From: Hybos culiciformis
Lineage: Eukaryota; Arthropoda; Insecta; Diptera; Hybotidae
DNA length: 64,000 bases
Direction of reading: 5' to 3'
NCBI GenBank assembly: GCA_964007475.1
Contig: OZ023273.1
Coordinates: 122,683,812 to 122,747,811 of the forward strand
Of this stretch, positions 24,597-52,560 are shown piece after piece. The notes under the pieces were generated by a model that was given only the letters and a program-made list of their open reading frames with translations, was not told where the DNA came from and did no database searches. Both the position numbers and the translations under genes were made by a program. The stretch's first letter is position 1. Every line of letters starts with the position of its first letter.

Positions 24597-26644
24597 TTAT
24601 GTATTTGATCTTGTTATCATTTTACTTATTCTTGTAAAAATAGAATGTTCCTCATTTACAATTTCTTTCTTTTTTTTAATTTTTTCAGTTCTTTTAATCA
24701 TTTTAGAAATAGATGAAAATTCAAATAAGAATACAAAACAAGTTACACTATGCCCGATAAAAATAATTATCCAAGCAATATCATAATATTCCACTGTCAA
24801 GGCAGAAAATATTAAATAATCATCCCTCAAACTCTTAAGAAAGCCACATTTTTTTGCATCATATACACTTTCTTCTTTCCAAATTGATTGCAATCCATTT
24901 TCTTGAGATCGAATTAAAAAAATTTTTAAACTTTCATAAAATGGTGAATCAACTTGCATTACAAAGCCACGTAACGAACTTCTAACGCAAACATGACTCA
25001 GTCTCATTAACGGCCGATGCATTAACATTTGTTGTTTCAAGAAAATAATTGCTGAGTCATCACTTAATGCATAAGCGTAAGAATTATTTAATTGCATTCT
25101 ATTTTGATCTGATATTGCTTCATGTACGGCGTAAAATAAATCAGTGTGTTCTTGTAAAATTCCGGAAAATTTGAAACTTATAATCATGTCGTAATCCAAC
25201 ATTAATTTAATCTTAGAACTTCTAAAATCTTCTATTTTATCAATTTGACGTTGAAATTCTGGCTTGGTTAAATAACTCATCAATGAAGAAGTGTAAAGAC
25301 TGCTTACGACTATTCCGAAAAACGATAATGACCATGATAGAGTGTATATCTTTTTATTTGAAAGTCCTAATGATTGACACAAATAAGTCAAAAGAAGATT
25401 ACTTGACCTAACTTTAATGTTAAATCGTTTCAAAATATTTTTTTCAAGCACCAATATGAGTCCAATTACAACCAATTCAACACAAATAAATTTTAATGAA
25501 AGAGGTATAAGAAAATATTTAAATTTTGGAATCTCTTTCGCAAATGGTACCATTAGGCATAGTTTTGTGAATTCGACAGGATAAGATAACAGTATATCAT
25601 TTTGAGTGATAAGTTCAGAAGTAATTACGAACGTATGAAAACCAATTTCACTCTCTTTCACTGCCATCGATTTAAGCATAAAGGGACGATTATAAATTTT
25701 CGGTGTTTCTCTCGAATTGTTTACTAAAAATGAACAATTTATTGTTTTCAAATAATTAATTAAAATTTTGGTAAGTGAACCAGATAACTGCGTTTTATTT
25801 GCACTATTAATGAAAGAAAATGATTTTGGAGGATCTTGCATTGCTGGTGATGAAATTTCATAACCCCACAGATTGAGCATTTTATTATAAAATAATTTTG
25901 ATGAATTTGTTAAATCTAATATTTCAACTGTTGGAAAAGGATTATATCCCCATATCTTGGTTTTTGTAACTACAATTAAATTAATGAATTTATGATTCCA
26001 GCTCCATTGAAATAAATCTATCAATTCCGACTCATGATCAATTTTTTCAGCTAGAAGAACTACTTTGGAGTCCCTTACATTTTTCAGAGACTTATGCAAC
26101 CAGTTTAAAATACCATATCTTCTTTCATCTAGAATTACTAATGTTAAAATAAGTTTTGAAATTAATTCATTATAAGTTCTGATTGAGACAGTTCAGATAT
26201 TAAAATCACAGGTAAATTATTATCATTGGAATTATTTTTACAATATTTGATTTTATAATTTTCAAAACTATGAACTGATGACTTATTAAAAAACATAAAA
26301 ATAGTTGAAATATCTTGCATAGCTTCAATATCATTTTTAAATATTGTGTTCAAACCGCAACTCGGAANNNNNNNNNNNNNNNNNNNNNNNNNNNNNNNNN
26401 NNNNNNNNNNNNNNNNNNNNNNNNNNNNNNNNNNNNNNNNNNNNNNNNNNNNNNNNNNNNNNNNNNNNNNNNNNNNNNNNNNNNNNNNNNNNNNNNNNNN
26501 NNNNNNNNNNNNNNNNNNNNNNNNNNNNNNNNNNNNNNNNNNNNNNNNNNNNNNNNNNNNNNNNNNNCGGATTTCAGCCATGAGCCTATAAAATCCTACA
26601 TGCTTTTTTTTACAGTTAAAAAAAACCTTTAATATTCTATTCAT
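24597..26644 (-). pseudogene. Divergent ionotropic receptor, IR-B, frameshifted and interrupted by an assembly gap
   Basis: The only IR on the minus strand. From 26644 the frame starts MNRILKVFFN, enters the 200-N gap (26567-26368), and resumes with the family N-terminal region (NTIFKNDIEAMQDIST). It stops at 26162-26164 just after LPVILISELSQSELIMN. The expected continuation (RTYNELISKLILTLVILDE, then the S1 lobe) is in another frame that stays open for about 500 codons to the stop at 24597. That frame includes WGYNPFP, three membrane segments, SYLTKP and VDSPFYE. A 1- or 2-base indel around 26165-26200 would explain this. Because a gap lies nearby, a base-calling or assembly error is a fair alternative to a true pseudogene. 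The C-terminal half is well preserved and ends with a longer charged tail than its paralogs. Confidence 0.82.
26368..26567. other. Assembly gap (200 N)
   Basis: Exactly 200 undetermined bases. They fall inside the N-terminal region of IR-B and may hide part of that gene or an inserted repeat. The flanking translations on the two sides do not overlap. Confidence 1.
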
Positions 26645-27328: not shown

Positions 27329-29089
27329 ATGAAGATCAACCGCTTAATTTTAAAAAGTGTTTTAAATTTAACATCATATTTTGTTTACGATTTACACAGT
27401 ATTCTTAAGAATGATTTGGAAGTGGTTATGACTATATCCAGTGTAATTATGATTTTTAACAAATCATCTATAAATTGTCACACAATAAAATATAATGTTA
27501 ATAATATCAATGACAGCCGAATTTTACCAGTGATATTAATTTCCGAATATAATCAGCAAAATAATAAAAAAACGTTCAATGAATTATTTTCTAAATTTAC
27601 ATTAACATTAGTGTTTTTAGATAACGATTGACATAATACTCTCAACTTGATGTACCTTTCGTTAAGAAATATAAGAAATTCTAATATAATCGTTTTTACG
27701 AAGAAACAATTAAATAACGAGACAATTTTAGAATTATTTACATGGAGTTGGAAACATAAATTTGTTAATTTACTTTTAGCAACAGAAAGAGAAATTTTGG
27801 GTTACAATCCATTTCCAAGAATTGAAATAAAAAATTTATCAAATTCAACGAATCTCTTTCCAAATAAAATGTTAAATCTATGGGGATATGAAATTTCTTC
27901 ACCCGTAATGTACGGACCTCCTCAATCTTTTTTTGTTTATAATGCAGATAAAAAGAGAGAACTGACCGGTTGGAATGCGATGCTTATCTTACATTATGTA
28001 AAAACAATAAATTGTACTTTTGTTGAAAATAAAAATAATAAAACTCCACATAATTATAGACGTCCTGTTCTTTTAAAGTCTTTGGAGATTGGAGAAACAG
28101 AAATTGGATATCATGCACTTTCAATTACCACTGAGCTATTATCCATAAATTACATATTGATGTCCTATCCAATGGACTTAATAAAGCACTGTATGATGGT
28201 GCCATGCTCCAGAGAAATTCCACCATTTAGATATTTTCTCTTGCCATTTTCAATAAAATTTATAGTTCTTGAAATGATTATACTGGGATTTATATTCGGC
28301 TTTGAAAAAAGTTTTTTAAAAAGTTTTCACATTGAAGTTGATACAGGTAATCTTATTTTACATTATTTGTGTCAAGTGCTAGCACTTTCAAGTAAAAAAA
28401 TTTCAAACATTTCTTGGTCATTGTCATTTTTCGGTTTGGTGGTAACAACTGTTTATATAAGTACTTTGATGAGTTATTTAGCTAAGCCGGAGTTCTTACC
28501 TCAAATTGAAAGCATAGAAGATCTAAGACAATCAAAAATTAAATTAATGTTAGACCACGATATGATAAAATCGTTCAAATCATTGGGAGTTTTTCAGGAC
28601 CACACTGATTTATTTTATGCAACAGATGCCTCAATATCGGATCAAAACAGGAGAACATTAAACAATTCCTTTGCTTATATACTAACTAATGACAGAGCCA
28701 CTGTTTTCCTAGACCAACAGTTTTTAATGCATAGGCCTTTAATGAGGCTTAGCCAAACTTGCGTAACTACCACACTGTCTGGATTTGCAATGCAAGTAGA
28801 CTCGCCATTTTATGAGAGCTTCAAATTTTTTTTGCTTTATTCACAAGAAAGTGGATTGAAATCAATTTGGAAAACGCAAAGTGTAAACACTGCTAGAGAA
28901 TATGGTGTTCTAAAAGTTTTTAAAGAAGATTTTATACAAATTTTTTCACTGACGATGGAGCATTATCTTATTGCTTGGATTACCATAATTATTGGAAACT
29001 GTGTATCATCTGTTATATTCTTGTTTGAACTTATTGGTTCATATCATATTCCTAAAGTTATAAAAATAAAAAGATTATTTATTAAATAA
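27329..29089 (+). pseudogene. Divergent ionotropic receptor, IR-C, with one in-frame TGA (candidate readthrough gene)
   Basis: Starting at the ATG at 27329 (MKINRLILKS; an in-frame ATG also exists at 27305), the frame is open for 100 codons, meets TGA at 27629-27631, then continues in the same frame for 485 codons to the stop at 29087-29089. The TGA replaces the TGG (Trp) found at the same site in IR-D and IR-E (DNDWHNTLNL). It is followed by C, the leakiest eukaryotic stop context. The rest is a normal IR: LGYNPFP, TM1, TM2 with SYLAKP, VDSPFYESF, TM3. No other frame damage is seen. The choices are a recent pseudogene, stop-codon readthrough, or a shortened protein from the downstream ATG at 27650, which would keep the lobes and membrane segments. 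IR-F carries the same TGA. Confidence 0.85.
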
Positions 29090-30841: not shown

Positions 30842-32629
30842 ATGAGAATTGATTCTTTTCTTTTAAAAAGTGTTTTGAATTTAACAACATATTTTTTTTA
30901 CGATTTGAATAAAATTCTTAAAAATGATTTGGAAATTTTAACAAGCATTTCCACCATTTATATAATTTTCAACAAATCATCTGAAAATAGTTATAATATA
31001 GTAAAATATAATGTTAATAACATCAATGACAGTAAAATTTTACCAGTGATATTAATTTCCGAATATAATCATCAAAATAATAAAAAAACGTTCAATGAAT
31101 TATTTTCAAAATTTACATTAACATTACTCTTTTTAGATAACGATTGGCATAATACTCTCAACTTGATGTACGTTTCGTTGAAAAATATAAGAAATTCTAA
31201 TATAATCGTTTTTACGAAGAAACATTTAACAAACGAAAAAATTTTAGAATTGTTTACATGGAGTTGGAAACATAAATTTGTTAATTTAGTTTTAGTAACA
31301 GAAGGAAAAATTTTGGGTTACAATCCATTTCCAAGAATTGAAATAAAAAATTTATCAAATTCAACGAATCTCTTTCCAAATAAAATGTTAAATCTATGGG
31401 GATATGAAATTTCTTCACCCGTAATGTACGGACCTCCTCAATCATTTTTTGTTTATAATGCAGATAAAAAGAGAGAACTGACCGGTTGGAATACGATGCT
31501 TATCTTACATTATGTAAAAACAATTAATTGTACTTTTGTTGAAAATAAAAATAATAAAACTCCAGATCATTATAGACGTCCTGTTCTTTTAAAATCTTTG
31601 GAGATTGGAGAAACAGAAATTGGATATCATGCACTTTCAATCACTACTGAACTAATGAATGAACATGACATATGGATGTCATACCCTATAGACTTAATAA
31701 AATACTGTATGATGGTACCCTGCGCAACAGGAATTCCATTATTTAAATATTTTCTGTTGCCATTTTCATTAAAATTTATTTTTATTGAAATCGTCCTACT
31801 TGCATTTATATTGAAGCTTGAAAAGAGTATTTTAAAAGGTTTTCACATCAAAATTGAAATATCCAGTCTTCTTTTAACATATTTATGTCAGGTACTAGCA
31901 TTGTCAACCAGGAAAATTTCAAAAATTTCGTGGTCATTGTCATTTTTTGGTTTAGTAGTGACAACTATTTACATAACTTCTTTGATGAGTTATTTTACTA
32001 AACCGGAGTTTTTACCTCAAATTGAAAGCATAGAAGATCTAAGGCAATCAAAAATTAAGTTAATGTTGGACCACGATATGATAAGATCGTTCAAATTATT
32101 GGGAGTTTTTCAGGACCACACTGATTTATTTTATGCAACTGATGCCTCAATATCGGATAAAAACAGACTTATATTAAACAATTCTTTTGCTTATGTACTA
32201 ACTAATGACAGAGCAAAAGTTTTTCTTGACCAACAGTTTTTAATGCATCGGCCTCGAATGAGATTGAGCAAAGTTTGTCCAATAAATACTCACAATGGTA
32301 TTGGAATGACGGTTGACTCACCGTTTTATGAAAGTTTCAATTTTTTTATGCTTCGAACTAAAGAAACCGGATTAACATCAATTTGGAAAAATAAAACTGT
32401 ATATATTGCAAGGAAACATGGCATTTTAACAATTTTCAGAGATGATTTTGTACAATTTTTTTCATTAACCTTTGATCATTATCGTATTGCTTGGAGTATC
32501 GTAATAATAGGATATAGTTTATCATTTATTCTGTTTCTGTTTGAATTTTTGTCATTTTATCAAACTATAAAATTTCTAAAAGTTAATAAAATGTCGGCTG
32601 TCAAAAAAAAAAATATATTCAATAAATAA
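30842..32629 (+). CDS. Divergent ionotropic receptor, IR-D (595 aa, single exon)
   Basis: Intact frame from ATG at 30842. The N-terminal region (residues 1-140) has the family words LPVILISEY and DNDWHNTLNL, with Trp102 intact. S1 contains LGYNPFP (158-164), GYEISSPVM and GWNTMLILHYV. TM1 is about 306-328 and TM2 about 366-386, ending SYFTKP. S2 includes FLDQQFLMHRPRMRLS and VDSPFYESF, TM3 lies near the end, and a Lys-rich cytoplasmic tail follows. It is nearly identical to IR-E (44139-45920), including about 400 bp of 3' flank, so the two are a recent duplicate pair separated by the large palindromic insertion. There is no clear signal peptide. The likely role is a chemosensory ligand-gated channel subunit; the ligand is unknown. 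Confidence 0.92.
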   Translation: MRIDSFLLKSVLNLTTYFFYDLNKILKNDLEILTSISTIYIIFNKSSENSYNIVKYNVNNINDSKILPVILISEYNHQNNKKTFNELFSKFTLTLLFLDNDWHNTLNLMYVSLKNIRNSNIIVFTKKHLTNEKILELFTWSWKHKFVNLVLVTEGKILGYNPFPRIEIKNLSNSTNLFPNKMLNLWGYEISSPVMYGPPQSFFVYNADKKRELTGWNTMLILHYVKTINCTFVENKNNKTPDHYRRPVLLKSLEIGETEIGYHALSITTELMNEHDIWMSYPIDLIKYCMMVPCATGIPLFKYFLLPFSLKFIFIEIVLLAFILKLEKSILKGFHIKIEISSLLLTYLCQVLALSTRKISKISWSLSFFGLVVTTIYITSLMSYFTKPEFLPQIESIEDLRQSKIKLMLDHDMIRSFKLLGVFQDHTDLFYATDASISDKNRLILNNSFAYVLTNDRAKVFLDQQFLMHRPRMRLSKVCPINTHNGIGMTVDSPFYESFNFFMLRTKETGLTSIWKNKTVYIARKHGILTIFRDDFVQFFSLTFDHYRIAWSIVIIGYSLSFILFLFEFLSFYQTIKFLKVNKMSAVKKKNIFNK

Positions 32630-36963: not shown

Positions 36964-37430
36964 AATGAATAAATTTTTTTTTTTAATTTTTTTGAACATA
37001 ATAATTTTTAATTTTTTTGAACATAATTTTTTTATTGGTAGAATACCTATGTAATTTTTTTGCTTGTAATATTGGGCCCTATATATACATATATTTGAAA
37101 TTAAAAAAGTGTACGATAATTATGAATTCCTACCCAAAATTTTTGGTCTGGTAATCTTTATTTCACCAGAGCTACCTATTTTGAAAAATTTTTTTTTTGC
37201 ATATTTTGAGCCGGGAAAACCTATAATGATAAATTACTTGATCGATATCTATACTATCAATGCCAAAATATACCTATGTTGTTTCTCAAGGCTTTAATAA
37301 AATTATTTGTAACGAGTTTAGTGCGTCCAATATTATAAATTTGTTTTATAGGATATAATGTTTATAACTTTAGTGGTTACATGATCTCTGTAAAAAAAAT
37401 AAAACAAAAACATGAAACATGAAATGAAAT

Positions 37431-40100
37431 GTGATCACTTTTCTTACTTATTTTTCTCCCGGGAAATTCGTATTTTTTTTAGCGTTTATTTATACAAGTT
37501 ATACAAACTATCAATGTAAATCAAATTCAAGTAGAACTGGAGGGGTGGCATTGTATGTAAAAAATGATTGGAAAACAGTTAAATTACTCGAAGATCATAT
37601 TAAATCAAAAATGTGGCTGTTAGCATGTGAATGTAATTTTAATGGATCCAGTGTGGTAATTGTTGCAGTGTATAGATCTCCTAGTGGTTCTGTAGGTGAA
37701 TTTTTTGATTTTTTCAGGAAAAATATTGAGATATTACTAGAGAGAAATAAAAGCATTATTATTGCGGGAGATTTTAATATTGATTGGTTAAAAAATGAGC
37801 CTCAAAAGAAAAATATTGAAAGATTTATGAATGATAACTACCTAATGCAAAAAGTGTCTCAGTATACTAGAATAACTCCAAGCTCACAAACACTTATAGA
37901 TTATGTAATAACTAATTCCGAAAATGTAGAAGCTACAGTAAATCCAAAGGCAAAAATTAGTGACCACGAATTAATTGAAATATCAATAAATTTAGTAGTT
38001 GACAAAAACTATAATTATAATAAAAAAATAGAAATCTTTAAATATGACAAAGTGAAATTTTGTAAAGAACTAAATATTGTAAATGAATCAAGGGATTTAA
38101 CTTATGATATTAATTTAAGTGCAGAATTTTTGGTCTGTCATTTGAACAATACCGTAAAAAAATTTACTTATAAAAAAGAAATTAATTGTGATAATAAAAC
38201 TAATAAATGGTTTAGCAATGAACTAAGAATACTAAAAGCAAATAAAATACAGAAATATAACATAGCGCGATTAATTAAAACTCGAGAAACGTGGAATCAG
38301 TACAAAATTATCAGAAATCAATATACTTTAAAAGTAAAAAATTCAAAAAATAATTACATTTCTGATAAAATTAATAATGCCAATGGACAAAAAGAAATGT
38401 GGAGAGAAATAAAAAATTTGGTACTAAAACAAGAGAAAAGTGTAATCCAGAGTGAATGTGAAAATAATTTATATATAGCAAATAACTTTAATAAATACTT
38501 CATAAATAGTGTGGAAGAAATTAGAGAATCAATCGAAATTGTCCCTTATATTAACCATATTAAGCAAATGCAATGCAAATTCAAATTTGCAGAAATTAGT
38601 CTGAATAAACTAAAAGCTGTATGCAAATCACTAAAAAATAAGTCAGATAATGATAAAATAAACCCTAAAATGATCCTAGATAACTGGGTTTTTCTTGGGC
38701 CAAGGCTGCTAAACATAATCAATAAATCAATAACAACGGGGGAATTTCCAGAAGTATGGAAAGAATCTATTATATCACCGGTTGAAAAAGTTCCAAAAAC
38801 TAAAAAATGTGAAGAGTTCAGACCCTTAAATTCATTGCAAACTCTTGAAAAAATATTAGAAAAGGTCGTAAAAGAACAGCTAGAAAAATATATTGAGGAA
38901 AATAAAATTCTCTCACATTTTCAATCAGGGTTTAGGAAGAAATATTCATGTGAAACAGCGGTGAATTATATTGTAAATGAATGGAAATGTAAAGCTGAAC
39001 AAAAGAAAATAATTGCTCTTTTCTTAGACTTTAAAAGGGCATTTGAAACAATCGACAGGAATATATTGTTAAGGAAGTTGAAATATTATGGAATTGAGGA
39101 TAATGAACTGAAATGGTTTTCGAACTACTTATGTAATAGGACTCAGCGAACCAAGGTCAACAACAATCTTTCGGATCCAGAAGTTGTTCAATGCGGCGTT
39201 CCTCAAGGATCGATTCTAGGAGCCTTGTTGTTTATTATTTACATAAACGATATGCCTGAGGTAATAAGAAAATGTAAATACATATTTTATGCAGATGATA
39301 CTTTAATTTATGCAGAAGGTAATGATGAAGATGAATGTATAAGTAAAATTATGAGCGATATGAATGGAATAATTAAATGGTTAAACATGAATAAACTTAA
39401 ACTAAACGAGAAAAAAACTAAAATGATGGAAATAAATAATAGTTCAGATAAAGTAATTCAATTAAATGGAGAAATTATCGAAAAGGTAGAAAGCATTAAA
39501 TACTTAGGAGTAATCATTGATAAAAAATTGAAATTTTATGACCACGTTGATTACACATGTAAAAAGATAGGGAAGAAGATAGGATTCTTAAGAAGAATAA
39601 GGTGTAAAATAGATAGAATAACAGCTGTAAACATATACAATGTAATAATAAAACCACATTTTGAGTACTGCTCATCTATACTTTTTTCTTGTTGCAACCA
39701 AGGTCAAATAGATAGATTTCAGAAACTCCAAAACAAAGCTATGAGATGTATACTGGGATGTGGTAAACTCACACCAATTAGTTTTATGCTGGAATGTTTG
39801 AAATGGCTGGATATACGTCAGCGGTTAGAGTATAATTCATTAGTTTTTGTTTTCAAAATAAAAAATGGAATGACACCAGATTATTTAAAGCAACATATTA
39901 ATTATGTAGGAGAGGTGCAACCTTATCGATTGAGGAACGTGGGAAATTTTAGAATACAAATCCAAAAAACAACTGCAGCCCAGAATTCCTTCTTCTACAG
40001 GGGTCTACAATTATTCAACACTTTACCTAATTATATTAAAATTGAACACCAGTTTTCTAGTTTTAAAAGGAATTGCGTAATTTTTATTAAAAATAGATAG
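37431..40100 (+). CDS. LINE ORF2 remnant: endonuclease (partial) - reverse transcriptase
   Basis: One open frame of 889 codons. The first ~20 codons are read from palindrome-arm sequence, so the annotated Met is fortuitous. Element-derived protein starts near residue 21. An apurinic-type endonuclease domain lacking its N-terminal part spans about residues 37-190, with AGDFNID (112-118) and SDH (177-179). Reverse transcriptase spans about 440-720, with FLDFKRAFETID near 531-542, QCGVPQGSILG near 588-598 and the catalytic FYADD near 619-623. A C-terminal region of about 170 residues follows. There is no RNase H and no Cys-His knuckle in the visible part. The style of the RT motifs fits the jockey/CR1 superfamily; the exact clade needs a phylogeny. 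No stop or frameshift interrupts the 2.6 kb, so the insertion is young, but loss of the 5' end makes it non-autonomous. Confidence 0.9.
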   Translation: MITFLTYFSPGKFVFFLAFIYTSYTNYQCKSNSSRTGGVALYVKNDWKTVKLLEDHIKSKMWLLACECNFNGSSVVIVAVYRSPSGSVGEFFDFFRKNIEILLERNKSIIIAGDFNIDWLKNEPQKKNIERFMNDNYLMQKVSQYTRITPSSQTLIDYVITNSENVEATVNPKAKISDHELIEISINLVVDKNYNYNKKIEIFKYDKVKFCKELNIVNESRDLTYDINLSAEFLVCHLNNTVKKFTYKKEINCDNKTNKWFSNELRILKANKIQKYNIARLIKTRETWNQYKIIRNQYTLKVKNSKNNYISDKINNANGQKEMWREIKNLVLKQEKSVIQSECENNLYIANNFNKYFINSVEEIRESIEIVPYINHIKQMQCKFKFAEISLNKLKAVCKSLKNKSDNDKINPKMILDNWVFLGPRLLNIINKSITTGEFPEVWKESIISPVEKVPKTKKCEEFRPLNSLQTLEKILEKVVKEQLEKYIEENKILSHFQSGFRKKYSCETAVNYIVNEWKCKAEQKKIIALFLDFKRAFETIDRNILLRKLKYYGIEDNELKWFSNYLCNRTQRTKVNNNLSDPEVVQCGVPQGSILGALLFIIYINDMPEVIRKCKYIFYADDTLIYAEGNDEDECISKIMSDMNGIIKWLNMNKLKLNEKKTKMMEINNSSDKVIQLNGEIIEKVESIKYLGVIIDKKLKFYDHVDYTCKKIGKKIGFLRRIRCKIDRITAVNIYNVIIKPHFEYCSSILFSCCNQGQIDRFQKLQNKAMRCILGCGKLTPISFMLECLKWLDIRQRLEYNSLVFVFKIKNGMTPDYLKQHINYVGEVQPYRLRNVGNFRIQIQKTTAAQNSFFYRGLQLFNTLPNYIKIEHQFSSFKRNCVIFIKNR

Positions 40101-42599: not shown

Positions 42600-42913
42600 A
42601 ATTATGGTTTGTTTTTTTTTTTAATATTTGAAAAAAATGATGACGGCCGATTCTCAGAAAAATGATGACGATTCTCAGAAAAATTCTATATGAAAATGGA
42701 TTTTTACCCTCTACCAAATTTCTTCCAACGTCGCTAAAGAAGTATAAACTTCAAAAATTTTATAGACTACAAGCTGATTAAAACTTAATGTATTTTTAAT
42801 TTAAGAAATACATATTTGTATATTCTATTTATTTAAATTCTGATACAAGAAAAATTTTATGCATAATACTAATATATCATTAAAGTTAAAATTTGCCTTG
42901 GTAAATTCTATTA

Positions 42914-42954
42914 GTGCCCCTCCAGAAATTATTTCTAGATCCGCCCTTGCACTG
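42914..42954 (-). mobile_element. hAT-like terminal fragment, copy 1
   Basis: On the minus strand CAGTGCAAGGGCGGATCTAG ... TGGAGGGGCAC resembles hAT-type ends (CAG-GGCGGAT-TAG). No matching opposite end or 8-bp duplication was located, so it may be a relic. It is duplicated at 46511-46551 with the segment. Confidence 0.45.
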
Positions 42955-44138
42955 AATTCCAAATCTAAAAACATAAAATTGATTTTGTTATTGTCTCTTA
43001 TCAGTAAAAATTTAAATAAAATTTTCTCAGGCTATATAAAGATTTGATGTTTTTCTTTCTGAAACTTTAAATTTTTTCTTTGATGTTAAATTTTGTAAAC
43101 TGAATGATGGCAACTTTATTAGCTTGATAGGTGAAGCTGAAATTTTTTCCAATTTATTTTGCCTCGAATCTATGAAAATTCTTTTTGAAAAAATAATTCT
43201 CGCCCCGTCATTACAAAGGATTAAACTGTATATATTGCAAGGAAACAGTAAACGTTTGCAAAAATTAGGCACTATGGTTTTTTCAAAATTCGAAAAAAAA
43301 AAAATTATCAAAATTTTGGAATTTTCGCACACATTTTTTTTCATACAAATTCTAGTTTTTGTAGCAAAAAGAGGCACAAATTAATCACTGGTAATCATTA
43401 TTTTTTCGAAATTCAAATCCGTCCAGAAAAACCTCCTGATTCATGTTTGAAATTCAAAAATCAAATTTTCTCGAAAAGAATTAATATAATAAATCCAAAA
43501 TTTTTAGCACATATTACAAGAAAATAATGCTGTTTCGGTTATAATCTTTCTGCTTTATTTTAAAGTTAATTTTCCGCCTAGTTTTTTTTTCCGTCTGTAT
43601 ACAAAATAGAAACCATAAAAATAAAGATAATTCAATAAATAAATAATCGTTTAAATAACTAATATGACTTAATTATTTATTAATAAAAATGAAGATAATA
43701 CAATAAATGAATAGTAGGTTTTTTTAACTAATGTCAAAGAAAATAGAAGCACTAAGAAAGGAAACGCAAAATAAAAATAATATTAGACAAGAATAACATA
43801 TTTTTTTGTTTTGTTTTAATTTAATAATATGAAAGTAAGGAAGCGGCATTAAACTATATTTTGGGATTTAAACATTTCATCAAATTTTTTAATGACTTTA
43901 TAAAAAAAAATATGAGTGACAAATACAAATAAAAAAAAGTTAGTAAAAAAATTTTTTTTTGATCGTTTCCCTTCTTAGTCCTTTCTATTTTCTCTATAAT
44001 TTCAATTAATTATTCATTAATTAAAAATATTATATTATTTTAATAATAAATAATTAAATACTTTTTCTGTAAATGTTTTCTTCAGAAATGAATGTTTTGT
44101 TAGTATATTATTAGATCCATGTAAACAATCGAAATCAA

Positions 44139-45920
44139 ATGGATCTTTTCATTCTAAAAAGTGTTTTAAATTTTTCTACATATTTTTTTTACGATTTGAA
44201 TGAAATTCTTAAAAATGATTTAGAAATTTTAACAAGCATTTCAACTATTTTTATAATTTTTAACAAATCGTCTGAAAATAGTCATAATATAGTAAAATAT
44301 AATGTCAATAACATCAACGACAGTAAAATTTTACCAGTGATATTAATTTCCGAATATAATCATCAAAACAATAAAAAAACGTTCAATGAATTATTTTCTA
44401 AATTTACATTAACATTACTCTTTTTAGATAACGATTGGCATAATACTCTCAACTTGATGTACGTTTCGTTGAAAAATATAAGAAATTCTAATATAATCGT
44501 TTTTACTAAGAAACATTTAACAAACGAAAAAATTTTAGAATTGTTTACATGGAGTTGGAAACATAAATTTGTTAATTTAGTTTTAGTAACAGAAGGAAAA
44601 ATTTTGGGTTACAATCCATTTCCAAGAATTGAAATAAAAAATTTATCAAATTCAACAAAACTCTTTCCAAATAAAATGTTAAATCTATGGGGATATGAAA
44701 TTTCTTCACCCGTAATGTATGGACCTCCTCAATCATTTTTTGTTTATAATGCAGATAAAAAGAGAGAACTGACCGGTTGGAATACGATGCTTATCTTACA
44801 TTATGTAAAAACAATTAATTGTACTTTTGTTGAAAATAAAAATAATAAAACTACAGATCATTATAGACGTCCTCTTCTTTTAAAGTCTTTGGAGATTGGA
44901 GAAACAGAAATTGGATATCATGCACTTCCAATCACTACTGAACTAATGAATGAACATGACATATGGATGTCATACCCTATAACCTTAATAAAATACTGTA
45001 TGATGGTACCCTGCGCAACAGGAATTCCATTATTTAAATATTTTCTGTTGCCATTTTCATTAAAATTTATTTTTATTGAAATCGTCCTACTTGCATTTAT
45101 ATTGAAGCTTGAAAAGAGTATTTTAAAAGGTTTTCACATCAAAATTGAAATATCCAGTCTTCTTTTAACATATTTATGTCAGGTATTAGCATTGTCAACC
45201 AGGAAAATTTCAAAAATTTCGTGGTCATTGTCATTTTTTGGTTTAGTGGTGACAACTATTTACATAAGTTCTTTGACGAGTTATTTTACTAAGCCGGAGT
45301 TTTTACCTCAAATTGAAAGCATAGAAGATCTAAGGCAATCAAAAATTAAGTTAATGTTGGACCACGATATGATAAGATCGTTCAAATCATTGGGAGTTTT
45401 GCAGGACCACACTGATTTATTTTATGCAACTGATGCCTCAATATCGGATCAAAACAGACTTATATTAAACAATTCTTTTGCTTATGTACTAACTAATGAC
45501 AGAGCAGAAGTTTTTCTTGACCAACAGTTTTTAATGCATCGGCCTCGAATGAGATTGAGCAAAGTTTGTCCAATAAATACTCACAATGGTATGGGAATGA
45601 CGGTTGACTCATCGTTTTATGAAAGTTTCAATTTTTTTATTCTTCGAACTAAAGAAACCGGATTAACATCAATTTGGAAAAATAAAGCTGTATATATTGC
45701 AAGGAAACATGGCATTTTAACAATTTTCAGAGATGATTTTGTACAATTTTTTTCATTAACCTTTGATCATTATCGTATTGCTTGGAGTATCGTAATAATA
45801 GGATATAGTTTATCATTTATTCTGTTTCTGTTTGAATTTTTGTCATTTTATCAAACTATAAAATTTCTAAAAGTTAATAAAATGTCGGCTGTCAAAAAAA
45901 AAAATATATTCAATAAATAA
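44139..45920 (+). CDS. Divergent ionotropic receptor, IR-E (593 aa, single exon)
   Basis: Intact frame from ATG at 44139 (MDLFILKSVLNFS). It is nearly identical to IR-D over the whole length, with scattered substitutions, and its Trp codon at 44436-44438 (TGG) is intact where IR-C and IR-F have TGA. S1 carries LGYNPFP and GYEISSPVM, followed by TM1, TM2 ending SYFTKP, S2 with FLDQQFLMHRPRMRLS and VDSSFYESF (Ser replaces the usual Pro), TM3 and a Lys-rich tail. The 1.4-kb upstream region is shared with IR-F, so the two probably have the same promoter. The proposed role is as for IR-D. Confidence 0.92.
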   Translation: MDLFILKSVLNFSTYFFYDLNEILKNDLEILTSISTIFIIFNKSSENSHNIVKYNVNNINDSKILPVILISEYNHQNNKKTFNELFSKFTLTLLFLDNDWHNTLNLMYVSLKNIRNSNIIVFTKKHLTNEKILELFTWSWKHKFVNLVLVTEGKILGYNPFPRIEIKNLSNSTKLFPNKMLNLWGYEISSPVMYGPPQSFFVYNADKKRELTGWNTMLILHYVKTINCTFVENKNNKTTDHYRRPLLLKSLEIGETEIGYHALPITTELMNEHDIWMSYPITLIKYCMMVPCATGIPLFKYFLLPFSLKFIFIEIVLLAFILKLEKSILKGFHIKIEISSLLLTYLCQVLALSTRKISKISWSLSFFGLVVTTIYISSLTSYFTKPEFLPQIESIEDLRQSKIKLMLDHDMIRSFKSLGVLQDHTDLFYATDASISDQNRLILNNSFAYVLTNDRAEVFLDQQFLMHRPRMRLSKVCPINTHNGMGMTVDSSFYESFNFFILRTKETGLTSIWKNKAVYIARKHGILTIFRDDFVQFFSLTFDHYRIAWSIVIIGYSLSFILFLFEFLSFYQTIKFLKVNKMSAVKKKNIFNK

Positions 45921-46355
45921 GCTGATACCAAAAATATAAATCATTCAATGTTCTTTTGCTTCAAAGACATATAAGCTCAAACGTATATTTCATTAAAATC
46001 AAAAAATAGAGTTTGTTCAGATCCAACGACAAAATTTGTACAACGGCATTTGACCCTCTGCGAACTATAAAGAACTAAAACTTGATTATGTTGATAAAAA
46101 TTTCAGTGATATTTGGGAATACATAAAAAATTCAACAATTCATTCGTCTTAATATTTAATTAATTAAGCCGAAAATTAATAACAAAAAGAAAAATCGAAC
46201 TAGCTTCGAGAAAATTGTTTTTAAAAATTACTACAAAATTTAAATTTTTATTTCAAGGTTGGACGAAATATTAGTTGATAATAAAACTAATATTTCGTCC
46301 AACATTTTATATCTCATGTATTGACATTTTAGTTTGCGCGCTGCGTATACAAAAA
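45921..46355. other. 3' flank of IR-E
   Basis: Matches the IR-D 3' flank (32630-33050), including the short hairpin near 46257-46309. Ends at the tandem-duplication junction. No gene. Confidence 0.6.
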
Positions 46356-48035
46356 AATTTTATAGACTACAAGCTGATTAAAACTTAATGTATTTTTAAT
46401 TTAAGAAATACATATTTGTATATTCTATTTATTTAAATTCTGATACAAAAAGTTTATGCATAATACTAATATATAATTAAAGTTAAAATTTGCCTTGGTA
46501 AATTCTATTAGTGCCCCTCCAGAAATTATTTCTAGATCCGCCCTTGCACTGAATTCCAAATCTAAAAACATAAAATTGATTTTGTTATTGTCTCTTATCA
46601 GTAAAAATTTAAATAAAATTTTCTCAGGCTATATAAAGATTTGATGTTTTTCATTCTGAAACTTTAAATTTTTTCTTTGATGTCAAATTTTGTAAACTGA
46701 ATGATGGCAACTTTATTAGCTTGATAGGTGAAGCTGAAATTTTTTCCAATTTATTTTGCCTCGAATCTATGAAAATTCTTTTTGAAAAAATAATTCTCGC
46801 CCCGTCATTACAAAGGATTAAACTGTATATATTGCAAGGAAACAGTAAACGTTTGCAAAAATTAGGCACTATGGTTTTTTCAAAATTCGAAAAAAAAAAA
46901 ATTATCAAAATTTTGGAATTTTCGCACACATTTTTTTTCATACAAATTCTAGTTTTTGTAGCAAAAAGAGGCACAAATTAATCACTGGTAATCATTATTT
47001 TTTCGAAATTCAAATCCGTCCAGAAAAACCTCCTGATTCATGTTTGAAATTCAAAAATCAAATTTTCTCGAAAAGAATTAATATAATAAATCCAAAATTT
47101 TTAGCACATATTACAAGAAAATAATGCTGTTTCGGTTATAATCTTTCTGCTTTATTTTAAAGTTAATTTTCCGCCTAGTTTTTTTTTCCGTCTGTATACA
47201 AAATAGAAACCATAAAAATAAAGATAATTCAATAAATAAATAATCGTTTAAATAACTAATATGACTTAATTATTTATTAATAAAAATGAAGATAATACAA
47301 TAAATGAATAGTAGGTTTTTTTAACTAATGTCAAAGAAAATAGAAGCACTAAGAAAGGAAACGCAAAATAAAAATAATATTAGACAAGAATAACATATTT
47401 TTTTGTTTTGTTTTAATTTAATAATATGAAAGTAAGGAAGCGGCATTAAACTATATTTTGGGATTTAAACATTTCATCAAATTTTTTAATGACTTTATAA
47501 AAAAAAATATGAGTGACAAATACAAATAAAAAAAAGTTAGTAAAAAAATTTTTTTTTGATCGTTGCCCTTCTTAGTCCTTTCTATTTTCTCTATAATTTC
47601 AATTAATTATTCATTAATTAAAAATATTATATTATTTTAATAATAAATAATTAAATACTTTTTCTGTAAATGTTTTCTTCAGAAATGAATGTTTTGTTAG
47701 TATATTATTAGATCCATGTAAACAATCGAAATCAAATGGATCTTTTCATTCTAAAAAGTGTTTTAAATTTTTCTACATATTTTTTTTACGATTTGAATGA
47801 AATTCTTAAAAATGATTTAGAAATTTTAACAAGCATTTCAACTATTTTTATAATTTTTAACAAATCGTCTGAAAATAGTCATAATATAGTAAAATATAAT
47901 GTCAATAACATCAACGACAGTAAAATTTTACCAGTGATATTAATTTCCGAATATAATCATCAAAACAATAAAAAAACGTTCAATGAATTATTTTCTAAAT
48001 TTACATTAACATTACTCTTTTTAGATAACGATTGA
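46356..48035. repeat. Tandem segmental duplication, unit 2 (5' part of IR-F)
   Basis: Near-identical to 42755-44438 apart from small indels and a few substitutions. The match ends inside the IR coding region close to the TGA, beyond which IR-F follows the IR-C/IR-F type of sequence. This places a recombination breakpoint in the gene. Confidence 0.92.
46511..46551 (-). mobile_element. hAT-like terminal fragment, copy 2
   Basis: Same sequence as 42914-42954, carried along in the tandem duplication. It is not an independent insertion. Confidence 0.45.
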
Positions 48036-49457
48036 CATAATACTCTCAACTTGATGTACCTTTCGTTAAGAAATATAAGAAATTCTAATATAATCGTTTT
48101 TACGAATAAACATTTAAATAACGAGAAAATTTTAGAATTGTTTACATGGAGTTGGAAACATAAATTTCTTAATTTACTGTTGGCCACAAATGGAAAAATT
48201 TTTGCTTACAATCCATTTCCAAGAATTGAAATAAAAAATTTATCAAATTCATCTAAACTATTTACAAATAAAATGTTAAATTTATGGGGCTATGAAATAT
48301 CCTCCCCAGTAATGTACGGTCCTCCACATTCATTTTATATTTATAATTCAAAAAATGAAAAAGAACTAAGCGGATCAAATACCATGGTTATTTTGAATTA
48401 TGCTAAAGCAATTAATTGTTCTTTTGTTGAAAGTAACAATATCAAAACACCTCGTCATTATAGTCGTGCTTATCTTGTAGATTCTTTGGAAAACGGTGAA
48501 ACTGAAATAGGATATCATGCAATGTCGATCAATTCTGAAGTACGCAACCAGAGTAACCTATTGATGTCATATCCAGTAGACTTACTAAAACTCTGTATGA
48601 TGGTACCATGCGCAAAAGAAATTCCAAGCTCTAAGTACTTTGTAAGACCATTTACATTAAAATTTATTGGAATTGAACTAATTACGGTTGCAATTGTATT
48701 GTTTGTTGAAACAAGTGTTTTAAAATATTTGCACATTGTACGTGGAACAAGCAATCTTATTTTAACGTATTTATGCCAGCTACTAGCACTTTCAAGTGAG
48801 AAGACTTCTAAAATTTCATGGTCTTTGTCAATTCTAGGTTTAGTGGTGACAGCTCTTTATACAACTTATTTGGTGAGTTACTTCGCTAAACCAGTACTTT
48901 TACCTGAAATTGAAAGCATAGAAGATCTCAGACAATCAAAAATTAAGTTAATGTTAGACCATAATATGGTTAATATGTTCCAAATATTAGACATTTTTCA
49001 AGAACACACTGATTTAATCTATGTGACAGAAGATCAAATATCAGATCAAAAGAGACTTGAATTAAATAACTCTTTCGCTTATATAATAACTAATGACAGG
49101 GGTGAAGTTTTTATAAATCAGCAGTATTTAATGCAAAGACCTCTGATGAGGTTGAGCAAAGCATGTCCAACAGCTTCGCATAGTGGCTTTGGAATGCAAG
49201 TTGATTCAATCTTTTATGAAAGTTTTAATTTATTTTTGGTTCGTATAAAGGACAGTGGATTATTGACAATTTGGAAATGGCAAGCTGAACATACAGCAAG
49301 AAAGTATGGCGTTTTAAAAATTTTTAGAGACGATTATATACAATTGTTTTCATTAACCTTGAATCATTATCGTATTGCTTGGATTATTGTGATAATTGGA
49401 TATAGTTTATCATTTATTGTATTTTTTTTAGAATTTATGTTTCATATAAAATTATAA
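47736..49457 (+). pseudogene. Divergent ionotropic receptor, IR-F, chimeric, with one in-frame TGA (candidate readthrough gene)
   Basis: Codons 1-99 copy IR-E. Codon 100 is TGA (48033-48035), at the same site as in IR-C and again followed by C. The same frame then runs 473 codons to the stop at 49455-49457, with S1 (FAYNPFP, Ala replacing the usual Gly), TM1, TM2 ending SYFAKP, S2 with NQQYLMQRPLMRLS and VDSIFYESF, and TM3, then a very short tail. The part after TGA is clearly diverged from IR-C, D and E yet has no further stop or frameshift. Interpretation: unequal exchange joined an IR-E-like 5' part to a distinct IR 3' part. Whether a full protein is made depends on readthrough. Initiation at the ATG at 48054 would give a shortened product. 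Confidence 0.85.
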
Positions 49458-49969
49458 GAGTTCTAAGTAATAAAAAAGAGAAGAAAAATTTTGGCTTTAA
49501 ACCTTATACGAAATATATCAGTCCATTGATTAAATCGTAATCATTTTTTTAAATATTGAATAAAAACTACGATTATTATATATAGTGGTGATATCCATTG
49601 TGATACCATTTGTTAAAATTTTGAAAATGTTCCGTACGGCTTCATAACAAGTCTTAATCAAATTATATAATTTAAAACAACGTTTCAATAAACGACTTTC
49701 GAGACATTGTACATGACAGAGATGCGCTGAAGTTAAAAATACACTATAATGTCATTATGATAGCTAGAAGAATTTTCAACTTTTTTGCTGTTAATTCCGC
49801 CCGCCCAATTTGAAAGAAGTTTGAGCAGAATCAATACGAGCTTATTCGGTTTGTGGAGAGCTTATTCCTAAAGGCATCATATTTGAATCGTCTTTGAATT
49901 ACATTATTAACTTTATAACCATATAATATAATCACAATCAGCATCAATTATAAAAAGAACAAGTTATAT
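49458..49969. other. Spacer between IR-F and the IR-G relic
   Basis: AT-rich. No gene recognised; any former IR-G promoter would lie in the second half. Confidence 0.5.
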
Positions 49970-50118
49970 TTTGAAGGAAGTTTTGAAGAATGATTTGGAA
50001 ATTGGAACAAGCATTTCTTCAGTTTTTACAATTACATCAAATCAAAATAATCATACAATAAACAATATAAATGTTAATAATCATAACAATGACAGTAATA
50101 TTTTAACTGTGATATAAT

Positions 50119-51872
50119 TAGCAACCTGACATTTTTTTCATGTTTTTTTCAAGTTATTCGTTAGACTTTCATTTTACATTTATTTTATAGGCTGATATAA
50201 AAAAAAATTTTTTTTTTTTGGGAGATATGACGATTCTTGTGGCAGAAGGCTTAGAAAATTTTGAAACTTCAAACTATCATCTCTCTGTTGTTAAATTTAC
50301 AAGAATATTTTCATATATCATTTTAAGTAGGTATTCGTGCGGGCTTTCTTTGCAGGTGCTGGCAACTCGGTGTTGCCAGTTTAACCCATAGAGAAACACT
50401 GAAAAAACAAAAAATGGGTTTTTTCATTTGAATGTACTCCCTCAATTTTCAACCGATTTGGTCACTCTATACCATTTTGGAAAGGTCTTCCAGACCACTT
50501 TAAAAAGCCGCTTTCGCAGGTTGAAATTTTTTAATGTTTTAGAAGATAATTCACTTCTTAGAATTTCCCCATACAAAAAAATTACCATTTTTAGCCATTT
50601 TCAAAAAAGTTGTACTCCATCATCTTAGTACGATATTTTTCAAACTTCGCAGTCAAAAAGTACATATTTATACTTTTCCAAAGCCGCTTTCGCAGGTGAA
50701 ATCGGTCCAATACTTTCGGATTGGCGGCATTTTATATAAAACCAGTTTTGAAGTTTTTTTGTTCGAGTTTTGCTCAGTTTTAGTGTTGTTTTTACTGTAT
50801 ATATTTTCGAGAACTGTTTTAAACAGACTCCCCTTCCATTTAACTTTCATAGACATTGTCATATAAGCTTTGAAATTATTTTTTTTAATGTTTCTTCCAC
50901 ATCAATTTCATTTTCTTTCCAATTTTCTTTTCTAAACTTATAACCTAAACTTTTTGCTATTGTAATTTGTTTCTTCAGTATTTAATCCTATATGATTTTA
51001 CAATAATTTCTGAAAGGCATACAGCAAGTTCTATAAAATCGAGTATCTCCGAACAGGGCTGGACTGGGAATGAATTTAGGACCGGGAAATTCAAATTTTC
51101 TTTGTAAAAAAATTTTCTCACGCCTAAAAAAAAATTAAAAGAAAACATTATAATTTTAGACAACAGATTTTAGTACCGCCCACCAGGAAACTCCTTCTAG
51201 CTTGTTAGGCCAGTCCAGCTCTGTCTCCGAATCATTCAAAATCTCACTCACGAGTTGTTTTGAGTCGCTTTTACGTTTTTTAGTAGTAGATAATTGTTTT
51301 AAATTATTCGAACGTTTTATCCGTTCATTCACGTTCCAACATGCATTTCCTAAAAACATGTCCTCATAAATTTTGGTTTTTCAGAAATTTTTGTTATGGA
51401 TTCGTTCTTTAAAATTGATTTTTTGAATAATAACGGAAATTTCTTTTTTCGTAATTTTTTTAATTTGGCATACCTCTTTTATTTATTATTCGATTCTTAA
51501 AAATTGAAACGACCTTTTTTTGGTTTCTTTTCTGTAGTACAAATGTTGCCTAAAAGGTGGAGTAATTTTAGTTTAATACACAAAATTGGTTAAAACGCCA
51601 TTTATACAATATTTTCAGGAACTAAAACTTTCTAAAAAAAATGAAGGTAAACTCCTCCTGAATCAAAGTCTAGAACATCATGAAAGGCTATTTCGAAGTT
51701 TTCATACTCAAAAATGCTTAATTTCAAAGTAACCAAAAAGTAACGGTAAAACCTAAAAAAACCAAAATGGCGGCAAACTTGTTGAACAAACATAATTTCT
51801 AATACCACTTCCTACCACTTTCAAGAATAAAAGTCCAATTTTTGCAAAAAACGCGTTTTTGTAAGGTTGCTA
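50119..51872. mobile_element. Non-autonomous DNA transposon, 1,754 bp, 8-bp target duplication, inside IR-G
   Basis: The ends TAGCAACCTGACA and TGTAAGGTTGCTA are imperfect inverted repeats bounded by an exact 8-bp direct repeat GATATAAT (50111-50118 and 51873-51880). An 8-bp duplication points to hAT (P-type elements also make 8 bp), but the terminal word is not diagnostic. On the minus strand around 50975-51359 there is a possible decayed coding stretch, split by a smaller MITE, that I cannot assign to a transposase family. Confidence 0.88.
51054..51223. mobile_element. 170-bp hAT-like MITE nested inside the larger transposon
   Basis: The ends CAGGGCTGGACTGG and CCAGTCCAGCTCTG are inverted repeats of ~14 bp, flanked by an exact 8-bp direct repeat TCTCCGAA (51046-51053 and 51224-51231). 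It inserted after the host transposon was already in IR-G. Its removal rejoins minus-strand open frames on both sides. Confidence 0.9.
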
Positions 51873-52560
51873 GATATAATCAACAAAAATAATCTAAATC
51901 CACATAATCTACTTAATAACAAGAAAACTTTCAGTTAACGATGGTCATAATATTCTTAATTTGATGTTCGTTTCAATTAAACAATGAAAATTTTTAGAAC
52001 ATGTAAATGTATTAATTTACTTTTAACCACAAAAGGATTAATTTGTGGATATAATCCATTTCCGGGAATTAAAATAACAAATTCAACTAAAGTTATCTTA
52101 ATATAATGTTAAATTAGTGGGGACGATTCGAAAAGAAATTCCGTACAATATCAATATTTCCTGTTCCATTTTCAATAAAATTTTCTTGAATTGAAATAAT
52201 TAAGCTTGCACTTATATTGATCTTGAAAGAGAATTTTAAAACGTCATATTAATATTGGAATATGTAATATTGTATTTAATATATATATTTATTATCATTT
52301 TCAAGTAATTTTTTTTTTTAATTTCGTGATTCTTGTTTATTCTTCGTTTGGTGAAGTTATCTCTTTTTTTCAACTTATTAGGTGAATTGTTGGCATAGAA
52401 GATCTGAAGCAATTAAAATTAAGCTAATGTTAATCCACAATATAGCAAATATATCAATTTAAATTACATATTTGATAATTTTCAACAACACACAATGACT
52501 AATTTCCAATATCGGACAAAATATATACTTAAATTAAACATTTGTTTCTACATGTAGGTA

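Follow-up and report, generated by a model that had tools for sequence, protein, structure and literature searches.

Background

Prieto-Godino and colleagues reportedly described, in 2016, Ir75a of Drosophila sechellia and other olfactory genes as "pseudo-pseudogenes". For Ir75a, the excerpts of two reviews state that a functional receptor is made past the stop codon (PMC5615767, PMC6125307). Chemoreceptors with a single stop had been suspected of readthrough earlier, as stated in excerpts of two further sources (PMC6080948, PMC9093017), among them the single-stop OR models Or15c and Or24b of Thermobia domestica, suspected to be pseudo-pseudogenes (PMC6080948). Readthrough of annotated stops is given as abundant in most, but not all, of the insects tested, and insect readthrough as able to depend on the base at the 3′ side of the stop, in the study by Jungreis et al. 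2016 (PMC5100048).

Here we analysed IR-C and IR-F, two members of a tandem array of genes read as divergent ionotropic receptors (IRs) in a stretch of 64,000 nt of Hybos culiciformis (C1:122683812-122747811 of a 342-Mb genome; "the window" in the following). As for D. sechellia Ir75a, each is an IR in which an in-frame premature stop interrupts an otherwise intact frame. Unlike Ir75a, the stop is common to two paralogs, apparently by gene conversion, and two further stop-bearing pairs are present in the genome; moreover, the readthrough of Ir75a was reported to be functional, whereas IR-C and IR-F are known here from their sequence alone. Or15c and Or24b resemble them in being single-stop chemoreceptors, but they are OR isoforms, for which the excerpts of the source give neither a stop shared between paralogs nor a constraint test (PMC6080948). 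The insects of Jungreis et al. have C-terminal extensions past normal stops, whereas the stop of IR-C and IR-F interrupts an old receptor. In the literature searched, with searches that were not aimed solely at this point, we found no report of stops common to IR paralogs. Chemoreceptor repertoire counts usually exclude stop-bearing genes, and such counts would be wrong if these genes were read through and their stops shared by conversion.

The array and its shared stop codon

The IR genes of the array mainly consist of a single long open frame each. IR-C (27329-29089, + strand) has one exon, open but for an in-frame TGA at codon 101 (27629-27631, +), and IR-F (47736-49457, +) is likewise open except for an in-frame TGA at codon 100 (48033-48035, +); in both genes the next base is C. 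The stop is preceded by 100 open codons in IR-C (from the ATG at 27329) and by 99 in IR-F (from the ATG at 47736), and is followed by 485 and 473 open codons, respectively. The two intact paralogs IR-D (30842-32629, +) and IR-E (44139-45920, +; 97% DNA identity to IR-D) have TGG in the same column. A sequence-only reading of this DNA had reported the common TGA-C, the TGG of IR-D and IR-E and some 475-485 open codons past the stop, and all three were confirmed. It had described the TGG Trp codon as kept in IR-D and IR-E. Beyond these two the Trp is not a family residue: the other IRs of the window carry AGA (IR-B), GAA (IR-G), GAT (IR-H and IR-I) or AAT (IR-A) in that column. Given this variability, an amino acid inserted at the stop would probably be tolerated.

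We found no second disabling lesion in IR-C or IR-F, either in the frames or in the alignment. Both are therefore otherwise intact IRs with an in-frame premature stop, as in an IR pseudo-pseudogene, and the further disabling lesions that mark an ordinary decayed pseudogene are absent from them, unlike in the multi-lesion IRs described below. An intron or exon skipping across the TGA was considered and rejected: the homologous coding sequence of IR-D and IR-E is colinear, so that no intron is needed.

All seven proteins scanned (7/7) matched Lig_chan (PF00060) at 12.1-22.7 bits, under the gathering score of 30.8 (Pfam). Scores below the gathering threshold for Lig_chan are common in divergent IRs. 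Every family motif had been said to be kept in the stop-bearing genes; as far as Pfam goes, what stands of this is that intact and stop-bearing proteins alike match this one domain below the cut-off. The IR-D protein, used as a query against a large protein set, gave no match at E ≤ 0.001. Two further members of the array were of use for the analysis. IR-B (24597-26367, - strand), whose 5′ end is lost in a 200-N gap, is a paralog that served as outgroup via its 3′ frame, and a broken IR relic (49965-52100, +) in the interval between IR-F and IR-G is a further, degraded IR of the array, which indicates that array IRs do decay.

Sequence exchange among the array genes

IR-C and IR-F are identical over an 89-bp tract that contains the TGA (27614-27702, +, in IR-C; 48018-48106, +, in IR-F), whereas 331 of the roughly 1419 sites compared after the TGA differ (~23%). 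The stop was thus most simply passed between them by recent exchange, and the 89-bp identity disfavours independent TGA mutations in the two genes. It follows that the two TGAs cannot be treated as independent of each other.

Other parts of the two genes have other closest relatives. The stretch 27801-28130 (+) of IR-C is near-identical to IR-D (~2% different) and is probably a separate exchange tract. In IR-F, the upstream flank and the first 99 codons (46353-48032, +) are near-identical to IR-E (from 42753), with six substitutions and one 3-bp indel in the 1383 bp of the flank and no difference in the 99 codons. The junction between the E-like part and the rest of IR-F falls within the 18 bp that end with the last base of the TGA; IR-F therefore looks chimeric, with an E-like upstream part joined just before the stop. 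The E/F tandem unit spans 42753-48032, and the D/E homology stops near the start of the second unit (46353-46357).

We also counted informative-site quartets with IR-C, IR-D and IR-F, taking IR-B as the outgroup. Between 27629 and 27702 there were only two informative sites, both of which group IR-C with IR-F. Between 27801 and 28130, 19 sites group C with D, three D with F and none C with F. The segment 28131-28500 is mixed (10 C+D, 8 C+F, 7 D+F), and in 28701-29086 the grouping of D with F prevails (20 sites, as against 8 C+F and 5 C+D). The IR genes of the array evidently swap sequence among themselves. The sequence-only reading had offered, as its alternative, a nonsense allele copied by conversion too recently for further decay; the identical tract and the mosaic genes bear out the copying.

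Selection after the stop and neutral calibration

Pairwise omega (dN/dS) after the TGA was 0.18 for C-F, 0.26 for C-D and 0.24 for D-F, and the intact pairs D-E and H-I gave 0.54 and 0.17. Under a branch model, omega after the TGA was 0.25 for IR-C and 0.28 for IR-F, 0.34 for IR-D and IR-E together with the stem that joins them, and 0.12 for the remaining older branches. A dN/dS near 1 after the TGA had been named in advance as the result that would speak against function; it was not seen, in values that mostly reflect divergence from before the stop. A long neutral decay of IR-C and IR-F is ruled out, since omega is well below 1. The tips of C and F taken jointly lie above the remaining branches (2ΔlnL 16.3), which counts against functional readthrough, though the point estimate of omega for the intact D and E is no lower. 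Because most of the divergence predates the shared tract, omega after the TGA has little power on the function of IR-C and IR-F since they acquired the stop: the tract is too young for constraint to show, and this too weighs on the side against readthrough.

The neutral calibration came from duplicates within the array or next to it, namely flanks and copies of mobile elements. These contained 83 substitutions and 16 indels, 15 of which were frameshifting. Simulated neutral stops arose at about 0.067 per substitution (1.34 in 20), and disabling lesions, i.e. stops and frameshifts, at about 0.25 per substitution. By arithmetic, a null pair with copies of about 1420 bp could be expected to remain free of lesions up to a summed divergence of only about 0.8%, at which three lesions are expected. 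At 0.4% divergence, the E/F junction appears to be younger than this lesion-free span, so that a recent nullity of IR-C and IR-F is compatible with the data.

Lesioned receptors elsewhere in the genome

Searches of the genome with its own IRs gave 74, 125 and 77 overlapping matches, which are lower bounds, and the best candidates of each were scored. The census consisted of the direct reading, in a single assembly, of loci in which a stop or a short frame had turned up; IR genes with a long open frame were covered as matches rather than read individually, and IRs that are distant or rich in introns are under-represented.

A premature stop was the sole lesion seen in at least seven IR genes, which represent four stop events. 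These were the TGA-C of IR-C and IR-F; a TAG-C in L016 and L017 (C1:122756309 and C1:122751620), tandem duplicates just to the right of the window; a TAA-C in L032 and L035 (C1:139667209 and C1:139674122); and a TGA-T in L047 (C1:140319848), a single IR otherwise open as far as it was read. Two or more lesions were present in L018, L031, L048, L050, L051, L052, L057 and the relic 49965-52100. Of these, L031 has a frameshift and a TAA, and L018, which has TAA-A and TGA-C near the C-terminus, was grouped with the multi-lesion genes. We also counted as multi-lesion the locus C2:48092953-48094423, which in the search table, the only source for it, consists of three pieces, two of them with stops. 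Five further candidates for a frameshift were not counted as such: L049 and L054 have GT..AG introns by eye, and L053, L055 and L056 have stretches of more than 100 bp between matching parts, putative introns, or partial matches.

The one candidate for a gene with a frameshift only is IR-B, in which a 10-bp deletion relative to IR-D and IR-E near 26185 shifts the frame and is followed by 531 open codons. This frameshift, about 180 bp from the 200-N gap, is its sole visible lesion. IR-B thus counts against readthrough, because a gene that is frameshifted and still open over 531 codons indicates that an IR with a single lesion need not be read through.

The neutral chance that the first lesion is a stop was 27%. 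On this basis, at least four stop-first events out of five (four stops against the frameshift of IR-B) have P = 0.021, and four out of four, if IR-B is left out, P = 0.005. The excess of single-stop IRs speaks for readthrough, and P rises with any hidden frameshift-only genes, to 0.049 for four out of six and to 0.14 for four out of eight, the latter being the case in which three of the intron-like candidates are truly frameshift-only.

The base after the stop points in the same direction. It was C in three of the four single-stop events, as compared with the 12.7% expected from one-step codons (P = 0.007), and in none of the natural IR terminators read (0/29 distinct genes, which include some close duplicates). 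Among the stops of multi-lesion genes, the next base was C at the TGA of L048, which goes against this argument, A in L031, and T in both L050 and L051.

The TAA pair and the TAG pair

L032 and L035 lie 7 kb apart (C1:139.67 Mb), and their TAA stands, by eye, at the Tyr of a Tyr-Pro pair in other IRs. Their upstream flanks align poorly, and the two genes look like conversion mosaics. Over 107 codons past the TAA, 12 synonymous and 8 nonsynonymous changes separate them, with an omega of 0.12 and a dS of 0.27 (2ΔlnL 18.8 against omega 1), and 12 or more synonymous changes out of 20 occurred in 1 of 4000 neutral simulations. The ends of this tract were picked after the data had been seen, and hence we tried seven end points, from +40 to +200 codons, for which omega was 0.10-0.39 and 2ΔlnL 4.9-19.4. 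By eye the tract holds the channel region, so that constraint on it is expected in a working receptor. Past the TAA there is no second stop, and no frameshift until the final codons, where the two genes differ by 2 bp.

If the TAA and the tract have a common history, the two genes would have been constrained beyond their stop throughout, which would mean readthrough. The main alternative is that the TAA alone was moved, by a separate micro-conversion no longer than 26 bp; the run of identity around the TAA extends from -21 to +5 nt. The constraint on L032 and L035 is the best sign of readthrough found here, and we take it as a hint.

L016 and L017 (C1:122.75 Mb) have a common in-frame TAG followed by CTA (L016 1978-1983) and are otherwise open, over 412 codons. 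Synonymous changes number 7 after the TAG and nonsynonymous ones 13 (omega 0.33, 2ΔlnL 4.7), as against 0 and 5, respectively, before it; for the whole gene omega is 0.54 (2ΔlnL 1.6). No lesion was found among the 20 differences after the TAG. The constraint appears weak in comparison with the TAA pair, and in this respect the TAG pair counts against readthrough.

Explanations of the shared stop

The account to which we incline, with modest confidence, is that the TGA of IR-C and IR-F is a recent nonsense mutation passed on by conversion, and that both genes carry null or nearly null alleles in which decay has yet to set in. A single change from TGG to TGA would have occurred in one gene, C-like or F-like, and a short and recent gene conversion, in either direction, would have copied it to the other gene. 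Both genes would otherwise be undecayed because the stop is young, and leaky neuronal readthrough might take place outside selection. Several results count against recent nonsense: neither gene has a second lesion, their omega is not higher than the point estimate for the intact D and E, the stop is followed by C, the residue at its site is variable, and a constrained TAA pair exists in the same genome.

The main rival is functional readthrough, in which a near-cognate tRNA would decode UGA-C in sensory neurons often enough for a full-length receptor to be made, as reported for Ir75a of D. sechellia; a stop made nearly neutral in this way would be free to spread by conversion. The excerpts of a study with Drosophila reporters place the peak of readthrough of premature stops in neurons (PMC7244557). 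Against readthrough, the TGA of IR-C and IR-F is directly followed by CAU, whereas the strong motif has CUA, and the RNA after the stop forms no stable structure (fold z -0.72 in IR-C and -0.99 in IR-F); no significant fold was found downstream of the stop position in any of the seven stretches analysed (C, F, D, E, L016, L032 and L035). That readthrough is a credible case, as first proposed, is upheld for the family by the single-stop IRs, the TAA pair and the base after the stop, and is weakened by IR-B; for IR-C and IR-F themselves we consider it possible but the less probable reading. That some IR stops in the family are read through has, mainly because of L032 and L035, roughly an even chance. 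The broader proposal of an IR-wide tolerance, under which chemosensory neurons would read through stops followed by C, and such stops would remain as sole lesions of full-length receptors and spread among paralogs by gene conversion, strikes us as rather unlikely; if it were true, stop-bearing receptors would make up a permanent class of functional genes whose translation is tuned down.

A-to-I editing of UGA would restore the Trp in the mRNA, because UGI is read as UGG. The lost codon is in fact TGG, and the TGA of L047 sits, by eye, where L032 and L035 have Trp. ADARs, though, disfavour a 5′ G, which is the neighbour here, no notable structure is present in the 100 nt downstream, and editing would not recover the lost residue at the TAG and TAA events; we regard it as very improbable. 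An artefact of assembly or haplotypes, to which highly similar tandem copies and a nearby 200-N gap could give rise, is equally improbable, as the same TGA stands in two copies with differing 3′ flanks and single-stop IRs recur elsewhere in the genome.

Stops of all three kinds (UGA, UAG and UAA), each followed by C, occur in this genome and form a natural, context-matched series for the study of neuronal readthrough, and the TAA pair allows testing now, without waiting for the pair of IR-C and IR-F to age.

Two minor features of the window are a frame of 890 open codons between IR-D and IR-E (37428-40100), which by eye resembles a LINE endonuclease/reverse transcriptase, and a short repeat at 1-507 that gives long open frames on both strands.
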